In this document: one piece after another, positions 4,246 through 8,733 of the stretch
Layout: the number at the start of each line of letters is the position of its first letter
Numbering within the stretch: the first letter of the stretch is position 1
Source: Methylomonas sp. UP202
Lineage (GTDB): Bacteria > Pseudomonadota > Gammaproteobacteria > Methylococcales > Methylomonadaceae
NCBI RefSeq assembly: GCF_029910655.1
Contig: NZ_CP123897.1
Coordinates: forward strand, 1,674,001-1,738,000
Reading direction: 5' to 3'
Length of the DNA: 64,000 nt
Notes under the pieces: generated by a model
Told to the model about the DNA's origin: nothing
Database searches by the model: none
Seen by the model: only the letters and a program-made list of their open reading frames with translations
Program-made: the position numbers and the translations under genes

Positions 4246-4592
4246 ATGCCGTCGGGCTATCGGATGCGGTGGGCTTGGTGGCCGGCGACGATGGCGGGCA
4301 TACGGCCCCCAATGCGGAAGTCGCGTCCGCCGCTTGGTCGGTTTACATTGTGTTGTGCCAGGACGGCAGTTTGTATACCGGAATCAGCACCGACGTGGCG
4401 CGCCGCTTCGACGAACATAGGAGCGGGCGCGGCGCTAAGTTTTTTCGGAGTCGAATTCCGCTCGCGGTTGCCTATCGCGAAACCGGACACGACCGCGCCT
4501 CGGCGTCTCGGCGGGAGGCCGCGATCAAGAAGTTGTCCAAGCCGCAAAAACTGGCGTTGATCGAAGCGGCGGGCGGGCGTGAAACGCCGTAA
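4242..4592 (+). CDS. GIY-YIG nuclease superfamily protein (YhbQ/UPF0213-like)
   Basis: The 116-residue protein has a single GIY-YIG domain. It begins at [18 protein letters not shown], carries the conserved Arg in VARRFDEH, and has a Glu in [10 protein letters not shown]. Small stand-alone members of this type are common in bacteria and their physiological substrate is poorly known. About 30 residues precede the domain and show no recognisable motif. The start ATG overlaps the rnhA stop by four bases. A start nearer the domain cannot be excluded, since the N-terminal extension is not conserved in the family. Confidence 0.82.
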
Positions 4593-4641: not shown

Positions 4642-5838
4642 TTATTTAGGCGCCTTGTACGGCCACGGCGATTCGGATTTGTAGCCGTCGGTCAAAGTCT
4701 TCAAAAACGCCACCAAATCGTCGACTTCCTTTTTCTTCAGGTTCAATGCGCCGAGCTCGGCATGGTTGACGTTGGTATTTTCCTCGGGAGCCGGCCAACA
4801 CTTTTTCGACAAAGCGGTCGCTTCCAGCGTTAACGTATTCCCGCAACGTTTTTTGATGTCGCGGTTGCTGTACAACTCAACCGCGCCTCGCAGGGTTTTG
4901 AAATAGCCGTTGTGCATATAAGGTCCGGTGACCGCGACATTGCGCAGGGTCGGCACTTTGATTTTGCCGAGTTCGGCGTTGAGGTGCAGGCGGCCGCCCA
5001 GACCCTCGTCGATGAAGGTCGCGCCTTCCGGGTTCAATTCCGCGCTCAAGGTATAAAACAAGTTCGCCGGGTTCTTCGGCACGCCGAGGTTATCGTAACT
5101 GTGGTCCGTGAATAGCGGCGGAGTGCCGTTAGCCAGCGGACGATTGGGGTGGCAGGCCGCGCAATTGCCTTTGTTGCCGGCTTCGAAGAGTTGCAAGCCG
5201 CGTTTTTCCTGGGCCGTAAATTTGGCTTTGCCGAATAAGTAAAAGTCGTATTTGGACGTAAAGCGGTTGAATACCGGACTGCGCTCGAACTCGGCAATCG
5301 CGTTGGCGATCCTGTCGTAGGCGAGGTCGACGTCGTCCAGCGCGCCGTTGCCGTAAACGGTGTCGAACATCGCGGCATACGCGGCGGAGCGGACCTTGGA
5401 CACGACCGTCGCGCTATCGGGGTTGGCCATTTCCACGGGGTTTAAAAACGGCCCCTTGGCTTGGTCTTCCAGCGTCGCGGCTCGGCCGTCCAGGAATTGG
5501 CCGCCGATGTAAAGACCCGAGGCGCGGTCGTAATAAAACGCTGGGGCGTAACCGGAATACATCGCGGTCGGCGTGTTCCGGTTGCCCTGCAAATTGCTCA
5601 GTACGCCTTGCGATGTCGGCGAGTTTTTGTCCGGGTCGGTAAAGGCGAACGCCGGATCGTGGCAGGTAGCGCAGGCCTGACCGGCCGGTTCGGATAGATT
5701 GGTATCGAAAAATAACTGTTGGCCTAGTTGCGCCTTGGTGCTGAGATTGCCGGCACCGGGCAGAACCGGAACGTCGGCGCCGGCCGTCGGGGCGAAGCAA
5801 GCGGCGGTCAGGGTAGTAAGCAGCGATAATAATTTCAT
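4642..5838 (-). CDS. Di-haem cytochrome c peroxidase / MauG-family protein
   Basis: The 398-residue exported protein has two c-type haem motifs, CATCH in the first half and CAACH in the second. This is the CcpA/MauG arrangement. Bacterial di-haem peroxidases reduce hydrogen peroxide in the periplasm, while MauG-type relatives carry out oxidative protein modification. The chosen start gives a clean signal peptide ending AGA; an in-frame ATG 42 bases upstream would spoil it. A C-terminal Cys pair (KRCGN and KKCWP) is unusual. The gene follows the porin by about 90 bases on the same strand and probably shares its promoter. Enzymatic class is inferred. Confidence 0.85.
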   Translation of the reverse strand: MKLLSLLTTLTAACFAPTAGADVPVLPGAGNLSTKAQLGQQLFFDTNLSEPAGQACATCHDPAFAFTDPDKNSPTSQGVLSNLQGNRNTPTAMYSGYAPAFYYDRASGLYIGGQFLDGRAATLEDQAKGPFLNPVEMANPDSATVVSKVRSAAYAAMFDTVYGNGALDDVDLAYDRIANAIAEFERSPVFNRFTSKYDFYLFGKAKFTAQEKRGLQLFEAGNKGNCAACHPNRPLANGTPPLFTDHSYDNLGVPKNPANLFYTLSAELNPEGATFIDEGLGGRLHLNAELGKIKVPTLRNVAVTGPYMHNGYFKTLRGAVELYSNRDIKKRCGNTLTLEATALSKKCWPAPEENTNVNHAELGALNLKKKEVDDLVAFLKTLTDGYKSESPWPYKAPK

Positions 5839-5928
5839 GTTCGTATCTCGTGGGAACCGGTTCGCGCTAGGCGAACGCATCCGAGGCGGCGGATGCCGGT
5901 TCGGGCGCCGCCCCGTCGCTGTGGTTAT

Positions 5929-7431
5929 TTAATAGATGAAGCCGAAGCCCAGATTGAACTCGTCGCCGAACGGCACGCCGGCAGGTACCAGCTTCCGATC
6001 GCGGATATTGCGGTAGTCGGCTTTGATGACGACGTTCTCTATCGGTTTGTAGCTCAACCCGGCTTGATAAATCCAACGATCGAGACCGCTACCTTTCTCG
6101 AAACCGCTAGCGACGGCGGCGACGGTGTCGTAACGCTCGACCCGGACGAATGGTGCGAGGTATTGGCTGCTTTCCTTCCAGACGAACGGCATGATGTCGT
6201 GAGCGGCTTCCACATACCAGCCGAAGCTTTCCTTGCCGATTGGGCCGTCGGCGCCGAGCAATGGGTTTAGGTATTCCGTGTTGTCGATTTTGCTCCAGGC
6301 GCCGAGTGCACGCAATTCCAGACCGCGATACTTATATTGAATGTGACCTTCGTGAAGCTGGGTGAACAGGTCAACTCCGCTTCCATTCGCGTTGACGATG
6401 TTTTTCTGGCTACTGTTGCCAAGGAACGTGGAGCCTCCAACCATCAAACCCGGTACAAAACTGGGTGAGTAATCTAGCCTGCCGGTGAAGGCGAAGTCCT
6501 CTGCTTGAGCATTACTACCACCTTGTCTGCCTTCAGTAATGCCAATGTTCGAAAAGCTACTGGCGTTAAGACCGTTCACCGCATACATCCGATATTGCAG
6601 GCCCGGTAGTATTTCACCGAATAGACCCGCGCCCATTTCTCGCCAAGTGGAAGGGATTATGTAACGTTCGACATCGGGGCGGTGATTACCGTGGTAGGTG
6701 GTCGGTTCGTGCATTTCGTTGATAAAGCCCATCGGCATCAGCATCAGGCCGGCACGGACGTTGTATTTGGGATTGAGCAGGAAATCCAATTGCGAGAACT
6801 CGACGGAAACTTCGCCTTTCGATTCGTCGCCTTCACCGGTCGAAGCGTGTTCGAACTCGATTTCGTTGTTCAGCACGATCCAGTCGTTGAATTTGTAGCC
6901 CAGGTAAATGACGGCGCGTTCCAGGTCGGCGGTGTCTTTATTAGTGGCACTGTCGCCGCGCGGATCGGCGTAATTGGTGTACATTGCTTCGCCGTAACCG
7001 CCGATTGAAATACCCCGATTGACGCGGTAGACATTGGATGCGGCCGGACCTAGACCGTATTGGCTCTTATATTCGCGAGACTCGGGTATGAACAATTGGG
7101 TTTTCAGGCGTTCGACTTCGGTTGCCAGCACATCGGTTTTGCGTTCCAGCTCGCCGTTTTGTCCGGTCTTTCCGTTAACTACCGGGGTGGATTGCGCCAC
7201 TGCTTGGGTCGACTTTTGTTGTTCCTTCAATGTATTGACTTCCTGTTGCAAGGCCTCGTTTTGGGCGGTTTTGGCCTTCAGCGCCTCGATTTCCTGTTGT
7301 TGTTGCTGAACGATTTTCCACATCTCCTCCATCGTGTTCGGCATCGGTGGAGCCGCATGTGCCGTACCCAGCGCCATGCTGATAGCGCCCGCCAGGCAAA
7401 CGGTTGGTTTGAATGGTTTGCTAATAATCAT
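5929..7431 (-). CDS. Outer-membrane porin-like protein with N-terminal coiled coil
   Basis: The 500-residue protein has a signal peptide ending in TAHA. A coiled-coil segment rich in Q, E and K follows (about residues 30-110). The long remainder of alternating hydrophobic residues, with many Tyr and Asn, is typical of a beta-barrel. The last residue is Tyr in FGFIY, the usual recognition signal for Bam-dependent barrel insertion. The repeated pattern YLGYKFNDWIVLNNEIEFE resembles porin-like proteins of the OprO/P type. The substrate is unknown. The start at 7431 is preferred over one 30 bases upstream because it gives a normal signal peptide. Confidence 0.75.
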   Translation of the reverse strand: MIISKPFKPTVCLAGAISMALGTAHAAPPMPNTMEEMWKIVQQQQQEIEALKAKTAQNEALQQEVNTLKEQQKSTQAVAQSTPVVNGKTGQNGELERKTDVLATEVERLKTQLFIPESREYKSQYGLGPAASNVYRVNRGISIGGYGEAMYTNYADPRGDSATNKDTADLERAVIYLGYKFNDWIVLNNEIEFEHASTGEGDESKGEVSVEFSQLDFLLNPKYNVRAGLMLMPMGFINEMHEPTTYHGNHRPDVERYIIPSTWREMGAGLFGEILPGLQYRMYAVNGLNASSFSNIGITEGRQGGSNAQAEDFAFTGRLDYSPSFVPGLMVGGSTFLGNSSQKNIVNANGSGVDLFTQLHEGHIQYKYRGLELRALGAWSKIDNTEYLNPLLGADGPIGKESFGWYVEAAHDIMPFVWKESSQYLAPFVRVERYDTVAAVASGFEKGSGLDRWIYQAGLSYKPIENVVIKADYRNIRDRKLVPAGVPFGDEFNLGFGFIY

Positions 7432-7478
7432 CGGATAACCCCTTGATAGGATGTTGAACAATAAGGTGAGTTTTTCAA

Positions 7479-7508
7479 ATAATAAATGCCAAGCATTCTC
7501 ATTTGCAA
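7479..7508 (-). promoter_or_regulatory. Sigma-70-type promoter of the porin-peroxidase operon
   Basis: Reading the minus strand, TTGCAA at 7508-7503 and TATTAT at 7484-7479 are separated by 18 bases. That is a plausible -35/-10 pair about 45 bases upstream of the porin start. A palindrome occupies the spacer, as expected for a repressor-controlled promoter. Confidence 0.5.
7484..7504. promoter_or_regulatory. Fur/Zur-like palindromic operator candidate
   Basis: The 21-base element reads AAATG-CC-AA-GCA-TT-CT-CATTT on the plus strand. Its arms AAATG and CATTT, and the inner AA and TT, are symmetric. Against an idealised Fur box it matches about 14 of 19 positions by eye. Zur boxes share the AAATG/CATTT ends. 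It lies between the -35 and -10 elements of the porin promoter. Metal-dependent repression of the porin and peroxidase is inferred. Confidence 0.4.
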
Positions 7509-7637
7509 GAAATATTGCTAGGCCATCTGTGGTATTTCACGAACGACAGGGACTATCCGAGCGGGAAATGAGGCAAAAAAGATGGAGTAGGCTGACCGCT
7601 GGTGGACGATAAGGTTGGAAATGGTATCGGGAAAGGT

Positions 7638-7666
7638 TTGGCAAATCGGTTAGCTGTCTCTATCAT
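7638..7666 (+). promoter_or_regulatory. Sigma-70 promoter of the FMN-binding gene
   Basis: TTGGCA and TATCAT are separated by exactly 17 bases, 28 bases upstream of the GTG start at 7694. This gives a short leader. The AGGAACC stretch just before the start codon can serve as the ribosome-binding site. Confidence 0.55.
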
Positions 7667-7693
7667 AGCCACCCTTTATTTGCAGGAACCGTA

Positions 7694-8245
7694 GTGAATA
7701 TTTTTAGCCTGATCAGATCATCAATAGCGTTGATTGCCCTGTTGACCGCCGCAAGTTCGGCGCTGGCGACGGTGTATTACAGCAAGGCGGAAGCGCTGAA
7801 GCTGGCCTTTGCCGAGGATGTTAGTGTCGAAGTGCTATCTCTGTTTCCGACGCCGGAGCAGGTTTTGGAGATCGAACGACTAGCTAAGGTCAAGCTCGAT
7901 TCCAGCCTGATTAGTCTGCATGTCGGCAAAAAGCAGGGCCAGATTGTCGGATACGCGATGATCGAGTCGCACACTGTCAGAACGCAGCCCGAAACCCTGT
8001 TACTGGTCTTGAACGCCGATGGCCGTCTACGCAATGTGTACACTCTAGCTTTCCATGAGCCTACCGAGTATCAGCCTCCGGAGCGCTGGTTTGCACTATT
8101 GACTAATCGCAGTCTGGAGGAACTGAGCTTCGACAAGGAAGTTCAGGCCGTGGCCGGCGCCACCTTGAGCTCGCGGGCGGCGTTAAACAGCGCTAGAAAA
8201 CTGGTCGCTATCTTCGAAGTCCTGTTGAAACCGGCAAAACCCTAA
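7694..8245 (+). CDS. Exported FMN-binding domain protein (probable covalent flavoprotein)
   Basis: The 183-residue protein has an N-terminal signal peptide (to about residue 25) and an FMN_bind fold related to RnfG and NosR. The GATLSS motif at residues 155-160 matches the site where ApbE attaches FMN to Thr (here Thr157). The residue before the Gly is Ala rather than the usual Ser or Thr. Such proteins move electrons on the periplasmic face of the membrane. The start is a GTG behind AGGAACC. The stop overlaps the next ATG by one base, so the two proteins are probably made together as membrane partners. Confidence 0.72.
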   Translation: MNIFSLIRSSIALIALLTAASSALATVYYSKAEALKLAFAEDVSVEVLSLFPTPEQVLEIERLAKVKLDSSLISLHVGKKQGQIVGYAMIESHTVRTQPETLLLVLNADGRLRNVYTLAFHEPTEYQPPERWFALLTNRSLEELSFDKEVQAVAGATLSSRAALNSARKLVAIFEVLLKPAKP

Positions 8246-8733
8246 TGCGATTTTTTGTGACCGGCGAACAAAACCGCCAATTGTTGATCAACTCACTGAT
8301 CCTGATGTTTTTGGTCTACGTGGCGCTGTTGTGGGTCAGTAACGGCTTGATGTATTTTCATAAAATGAGTTTAACCGTCGAGTCGGTGGTCGCTTTCTAT
8401 CTCGGTTCTGAAGAAGCCTTCACCCAGCCCAGAAGCTATCAAAGTCTGCTCGAAGTTACCCACTTTCATCTATTTGCGATGGGCATGCTGGTGTTGACCT
8501 TAACGCATCTGATGCTGATGACCTCGTTACCAACTCTGATGAAAGTGTGGTTAAGCGGCATCATATACGCGGCGGCATTGGCCGACGAAGCGGCCGGTTG
8601 GCTGGTCAGGTTTGTTGACCCCCGTTTTGCCTATTTCAAGATTGCCGCGTTTCTGACCCTTGAAGCTTCGTTGCTAGCGCTGATCGTCATCGTATCGATT
8701 TCGTTGATCCAGTCCCGGCAGCGCATTCAGTAA
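8245..8733 (+). CDS. Four-helix membrane protein, possible b-haem partner of the FMN protein
   Basis: The family is not recognised. The 162-residue protein has four predicted membrane segments (about 14-35, 71-93, 98-122 and 130-155). Histidines H39, H73, H75 and H88 lie at or near the helix ends, so haem or metal ligation is possible. The context suggests it passes electrons between the quinone pool or cytoplasm and the exported FMN-binding protein encoded immediately upstream. That role is inference. The first gene's stop and this start share one base (TAATG), a sign of translational coupling. Confidence 0.6.
   Translation: MRFFVTGEQNRQLLINSLILMFLVYVALLWVSNGLMYFHKMSLTVESVVAFYLGSEEAFTQPRSYQSLLEVTHFHLFAMGMLVLTLTHLMLMTSLPTLMKVWLSGIIYAAALADEAAGWLVRFVDPRFAYFKIAAFLTLEASLLALIVIVSISLIQSRQRIQ

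Follow-up and report, generated by a model that had tools for sequence, protein, structure and literature searches.

A conserved porin, flavoprotein and membrane-protein trio in Methylomonas sp. UP202: a candidate Fur-regulated module for flavin-based iron reduction

Introduction

Flavinylation clusters of the PepSY/DUF2271/ApbE and MsrQ-like types combine a membrane electron carrier with an exported flavinylated protein and ApbE, and several of them are tied to iron assimilation and to Fur, the ferric uptake regulator (Meheust 2021; Huang 2024). A frequent association of flavinylation clusters with iron assimilation has also been described (PMC8238504). Fur-controlled porins of Geobacter and Desulfuromonas are predicted to function in Fe(II) transport (PMC545781), a role suggested for the psp porin, which is weakly similar to PF07396 and preceded by tandem Fur boxes, as are some of the loci described below (Rodionov 2004). 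The MtrAB-type porin-cytochrome cluster of Methylobacter pairs an outer-membrane barrel with an inner-membrane electron donor, a monohaem protein with four transmembrane helices (PMC13322032). Here a locus of Methylomonas sp. UP202 is described that resembles these systems in part. It is located in a stretch of 64,000 nucleotides (NZ_CP123897.1, positions 1,674,001 to 1,738,000; referred to as the window) and encodes an outer-membrane porin, an exported flavin mononucleotide (FMN)-binding protein, a membrane protein with four transmembrane helices (4TM) and a MauG-like di-haem protein. We predict with moderate confidence that the locus is a Fur-repressed iron acquisition module, in which a porin-coupled, flavin-based periplasmic ferric reductase would be fed by quinol.

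Results

Conservation of the trio

Co-occurrence of the genes was assessed in 151 Methylococcales genomes. The 4TM protein is present in 95 of them. The FMN protein was found in 92 genomes, all belonging to these 95, and its gene adjoins the 4TM gene on the same strand in every case (92/92). The porin occurs in 94 genomes, 93 of which also encode the 4TM protein; it is positioned at most 5 kb upstream of the FMN-4TM pair in 81 of the 95 4TM genomes and is present but unlinked, on another contig or megabases away, in 12. Fisher tests gave p ~1e-37 both for 4TM with the FMN protein and for 4TM with the porin, values that are uncorrected for shared ancestry. Based on this co-occurrence, chance neighbours were ruled out. 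Nearly all of 80 related contigs retrieved with the 4TM protein, derived from Methylococcales and from metagenome-assembled genomes labelled Myxococcota or Deltaproteobacteria, harbor the FMN gene directly upstream of the 4TM gene and the porin gene upstream of both. The same arrangement is found in M. koyamae R-45383 (L006), whose 4TM protein is 97% identical to that of the window. The Myxococcota/'Deltaproteobacteria' contigs contain the same trio in the same order; apbE follows the 4TM gene in most loci with enough flanking sequence, and fur sometimes precedes the trio. The trio was also detected beyond Methylococcales, in another family of Gammaproteobacteria (three genomes). As judged from these genome comparisons, the porin, the FMN protein and the 4TM protein constitute an obligate trio, the linkage of which is well supported. 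An original prediction, made from the letters of the window, had grouped all four genes and proposed a search for conserved neighbourhoods as its check; this search retained the three members of the trio and not the MauG-like gene.

Individual loci deviate from this pattern. A 4TM fragment without an FMN gene lies beside intact porin and MauG-like genes at G092:C1:1414715-1416267, and the 4TM gene at G061:C1:591750-592241 contains an in-frame TGA and has no porin; both loci are apparently decaying modules. Genomes of family f7 (e.g. G006, G013) encode divergent porin homologues (E ~1e-73) without FMN or 4TM partners. In a Methylococcus locus (L028:6629-7327, plus strand) a lipoprotein-like open reading frame of ~230 amino acids without a Pfam match is inserted between the porin and FMN genes, and a porin-FMN gap similar in size occurs in L042 and L111.

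In the window, the porin gene (7434-5929, minus strand) starts with an ATG at 7434, with a TTG at 7461 as a possible alternative. The MauG-like gene (5880-4642, minus strand; likely start at 5838, MKLLSLL) follows the porin gene on its 3' side in the same direction, 48 bp away. The FMN_bind gene (7694-8245, plus strand) has a GTG start, and its TAA stop codon overlaps the ATG of the 4TM gene (8245-8733, plus strand) by one base. Because of this overlap the FMN-4TM pair looks translationally coupled. Both operons share a divergent promoter region at 7462-7693. The four open reading frames, their coordinates and their divergent layout around one intergenic region agreed with the original prediction. 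A Pfam scan assigned the di-haem protein to CCP_MauG (4e-43) and the FMN protein to FMN_bind (9e-5), and gave no match for the porin or the 4TM protein of the window. A small GIY-YIG-like open reading frame (4345-4592, plus strand) between an RNase H gene and the MauG-like gene is kept across Methylomonas.

Fur boxes upstream of the porin genes

Motif discovery without a prior was applied to 38 gammaproteobacterial and 16 deltaproteobacterial porin upstream regions. The former yielded AAATGAGAATGATTTGCATTT, located ~70 bp before the start, which fits the Vibrionaceae Fur box AATGANAATNATTNTCATT (PMC5511505). The latter yielded AAATTGAAttTCATTTTCAAT with the half-sites AAATTGAA..TTTTCAAT, which fits the delta FUR box TTGAAAATCATTTTCAA (PMC545781). 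The box of the window, AAATGAGAATGCTTGGCATTT (minus-strand letters), is positioned at 7484-7504 on the minus strand, 50-70 bp upstream of the porin start. It had been missed by a canonical 19-mer Fur scan and was recovered by motif discovery; 19 of its 21 positions match, compared to 14 in the next best site of the window and 14-16 in simulated windows. The exact 19-bp motif has a single occurrence in the genome, and therefore a looser Fur pattern with up to two mismatches was used to scan the 5.68 Mb for other sites. Six places were found: the window box, bfd, tonB, two sites at most ~1.5 kb away from a TonB-dependent receptor gene and one site without explanation. A reversed-pattern control produced 2 forward and 3 reverse matches, compared to 6 and 6 for the Fur pattern.

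Boxes are kept at several unlinked porins and are present at the unlinked FMN-4TM operons of L115, L119 and L121. Moreover, the porin gene is preceded by a fur gene in L064, L066, L069 and L079; the best matches of these fur genes are ferric uptake regulator models, with scores below the equivalog cut-offs. The motif conserved ahead of the porin genes is a predicted Fur box, and regulation of the locus by Fur is well supported by these patterns. The assignment to redox or metal handling made in the original prediction held, and the conserved Fur boxes and adjacent fur genes narrow the metal to iron.

The 4TM protein and its c-haem sister family

The 4TM protein is a four-helix inner-membrane protein. 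Its histidines had been noted as clustered, which is correct for H73, H75 and H88, all invariant and located in the second transmembrane helix (TM2), and not for H39, which is not conserved. Together with these histidines, E70, E115, G118 and W119 are invariant or nearly invariant. The AlphaFold (AF2) model consists of four long helices with a predicted local distance difference test (pLDDT) score of 83. A Foldseek search of the PDB returned no significant match and only weak cytochrome b6f matches, by which a known fold was ruled out. Comparison of 35 homologues with the Pfam families of NapH, MsrQ, PepSY, DsbD, NQR/RNF and DUF4405 gave no match at E<=1. On this evidence the 4TM protein represents a new family, and it is probably a quinol-to-flavin electron carrier.

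The profile search with the 4TM protein also found proteins of ~240-315 residues in which the four helices recur and TM1 and TM2 are separated by an inserted CxxCH domain. These share H73 and H75 with the 4TM protein, but not H88. The weak profile matches were thus not noise but a c-haem sister family, and by sequence the 4TM protein is the haem-c-free sister of a four-helix monohaem cytochrome. One such paralogue without a Pfam match is encoded in the same genome (L090:1444-2232, minus strand; C1:1212428-1212706 region), where it adjoins a di-haem cytochrome c gene. The inner-membrane monohaem protein of the Methylobacter cluster (PMC13322032) is taken to be a member of this sister family, with which it was equated by description and not by sequence. 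The combination of 4TM with an FMN protein would therefore represent a cytochrome-to-flavin swap, as described for other systems (PMC8238504).

The FMN protein and the porin

The exported FMN protein of the window is RnfG-like and scores 23.6 bits against FMN_bind, compared to a curated cut-off of 22.0 bits; 31 of 32 homologues match this family at E<=0.1. It matches RnfG (9eri) with an E-value of 1e-7. The motif [STA]GATLS is conserved among the relatives and reads A-G-A-T-L-S-S in the window; most relatives have S/T-GAT, and the acceptor threonine is kept in nearly all. Three apbE genes are present in the Methylomonas genome. The flavin-binding fold and the link to ApbE are evident from sequence, and the protein is probably an ApbE substrate with putatively covalent FMN.

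The AlphaFold model of the porin (pLDDT 74) shows an N-terminal coiled coil followed by ~16 strands, and its fold matches OmpC, OmpF and OmpM1 (E ~1e-12, Foldseek). Eight of 30 porin homologues have a weak PF07396 match. The porins linked to MauG-like genes contain two extra residues, Trp194 and Trp428; these are confounded with clade, and their interpretation as a sign of porin modification by the MauG-like enzyme was set aside for this reason. In L130 (G109:C143) the porin gene is followed by feoA-feoB, which share its strand and are separated from it by a few small open reading frames.

The MauG-like protein

The MauG-like subfamily was found at high score in 30 of the 151 genomes (33 loci). 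In 21 genomes the gene is located beside the porin described here, in either orientation, also where the porin is far from the FMN-4TM pair. No such gene was found beside the trio outside Methylococcales, the Myxococcota/'Deltaproteobacteria' contigs included. As most trio loci lack it, a MauG-like gene was ruled out as a core member; since it stays by the porin even when this is unlinked from FMN-4TM, genome comparison identifies it as an optional accessory of the porin. In L131 (G055:C13), a genome without the trio, a MauG-like gene lies ~1.8 kb from a feoA-feoB fusion.

The best PDB match of the protein is MauG (1e-89), followed by entries that we take to be BthA (1e-68) and MbnH (1e-39). 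Two CxxCH haem sites (C70/C73/H74 and C240/C243/H244) and Y337 are invariant, the latter corresponding to the axial ligand Tyr294 of MauG. MauG Tyr294, Glu113, Gln103 and Pro107 are kept in the family. The hole-hopping residues Trp93 and Trp199 of MauG are not kept: the family profile has Leu and Gly in their place, and only some relatives have a Trp at position 93. The scores are below the NCBIfam cut-offs for MauG (TIGR03791, 97.7 vs 443.85 bits) and MbnH (TIGR04039, 142.8 vs 362.85 bits). In bacterial cytochrome c peroxidase the high-potential haem has a Met ligand; this is absent here, and an invariant Tyr occupies the ligand position. Due to the conserved Tyr ligand, the absence of Trp93 and Trp199 and the missed family cut-offs, the protein is classified by sequence as MauG-like, and not as MauG, MbnH or a classical peroxidase. 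The name peroxidase, given to it in the first reading of the window, was too specific.

Discussion

Fur control, together with an OmpC-like pore and a pair that links the membrane to a flavin, suggests reductive iron acquisition. Under iron starvation, Fur would leave the box at 7484-7504 and both operons would be expressed. The porin may then pass small ferric chelates or Fe2+ across the outer membrane; in E. coli, OmpC and OmpF matter for iron uptake once the high-affinity system is blocked (PMC7315122). The 4TM protein would oxidise quinol in the inner membrane, perhaps via a b-haem on H75/H88, and reduce the FMN that ApbE would have attached covalently to the RnfG-like periplasmic protein. 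This electron route is supported by the sister family, in which a monohaem c domain occupies the loop between TM1 and TM2. The flavin would reduce Fe(III) to Fe(II), which may be taken up by an importer encoded at another locus, FeoB or a different one. At the porin end, the optional MauG-like enzyme could remove H2O2 that reacts with Fe(II), or oxidatively modify a partner such as the porin. We infer iron as the substrate, the direction of electron flow, the cofactor of the 4TM protein and the role of the MauG-like enzyme. An electron path from the membrane to a flavin beside an outer-membrane pore, as initially proposed, is supported by the conserved trio.

Several points weigh against this reading. 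The b-haem is a guess from histidine spacing, and the flavin motif of the window is AGAT and not the usual S/T-GAT. The intergenic region of the window contains only one box, ~190 bp from the FMN start. Several Methylomonas genomes do not have the trio, which is therefore not essential. The trio shows no link with FeoB, which is absent from at least 14 trio genomes and has similar frequencies overall. Because no positive association was found, FeoB was ruled out as an obligate partner; it is common with or without the trio, and so the importer in the inner membrane may vary from one species to another.

An iron-sparing route is possible but rather unlikely. Under iron starvation, the FMN protein would take over from a c-type cytochrome as periplasmic carrier after quinol, much as flavodoxin takes over from ferredoxin; the acceptor would not be iron, and the porin would bring in a soluble acceptor or a vitamin. 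Fur control is consistent with this route, as are the c-haem domain being the main added part of the sister family and the flavin/cytochrome swaps known elsewhere (PMC8238504). However, an internal electron shunt would need no obligate porin, and the accessory beside this porin is a di-haem protein, which is not iron-sparing.

It is doubtful that the trio forms an outer-membrane conduit analogous to porin-cytochrome systems, with electrons passing from 4TM via the FMN protein and the porin to extracellular acceptors. The porin is always paired with the membrane-to-flavin pair, its coiled coil could extend into the periplasm, and the Methylobacter cluster has a four-helix monohaem protein as its partner in the inner membrane (PMC13322032), but the barrel looks like that of a ~16-strand diffusion porin and no redox protein of the module could fill it. 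In addition, Fur repression fits assimilation better than respiration. Similarly doubtful is a flavin counterpart of the porin-cytochrome complex, in which 4TM quinol dehydrogenases of a new family, a carrier with covalent FMN and a porin dedicated to the system would deliver electrons to iron, either at the outer membrane or across it, and the MauG-like enzyme would oxidatively modify the porin.

The original prediction had electrons pass through the flavin to the di-haem enzyme, which would then be the electron-consuming terminal oxidoreductase. Gene adjacency in the window agrees with this, as does the position of the MauG-like gene between the porin and FMN genes in L033, L036, L052 and L057. 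Nevertheless, such a path is very unlikely and is not supported, as most trio loci, including those of the Myxococcota/'Deltaproteobacteria' contigs, lack a MauG-like gene, and this gene tracks the porin instead of FMN-4TM. Handling of copper, as by MopE/SACCP and CorA/CorB of methanotrophs, is the least probable alternative: MauG-family proteins of M. capsulatus are surface-exposed and respond to copper (PMC4831470), and such enzymes have copper-linked partners in MopE and CorA (PMC3621798), but the Fur boxes and fur neighbours, the presence of the trio in Myxococcota, where methanotrophy is not expected, and the fact that no MopE/CorA/MbnP-like partner was noticed argue against it.

Comparison with known systems

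The combination of porin, FMN protein and 4TM is probably undescribed; in the original prediction the combination of all four genes had not been recognised as a described pathway. No description of the trio was found in literature searches, and the flavinylation surveys, supplements excluded, list other membrane partners and do not mention it (Meheust 2021; Huang 2024). MauG, BthA and MbnH share two c-haems, the Tyr ligand and MauG-like distal residues with the di-haem protein of the locus, which differs in the absence of MauG Trp93/Trp199, in its scores below the MauG and MbnH cut-offs and in having a porin as its partner. In contrast to the Methylobacter MtrAB-type cluster, the trio has FMN in place of the cytochromes and a porin of the ~16-strand diffusion type; of the features expected of a porin-cytochrome system, neither a multihaem gene nor an MtrB-type barrel was found at the locus, where the barrel has an OmpC-like fold.

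The flavinylation clusters differ from the trio in their membrane partner, which is here the 4TM family without a Pfam entry, in their flavin protein, here a separate single FMN_bind domain, and in their outer-membrane partner, here a porin and not a TonB receptor. The 4TM protein adds a Pfam-less membrane family to the few carriers known to supply extracytosolic flavins with electrons, and flavinylation gains a simple porin as outer-membrane partner, both placed under Fur. This predicts a TonB-independent iron route in ~60% of the sampled Methylococcales genomes and in Myxococcota; the iron need of methanotrophs is large (soluble methane monooxygenase, cytochromes). The psp porin of Geobacter and Desulfuromonas, likened to the window porin by description, has no described flavoprotein, 4TM or ApbE partner (Rodionov 2004), and with the trio the use suspected for Fur-controlled porins since 2004 becomes directly testable.

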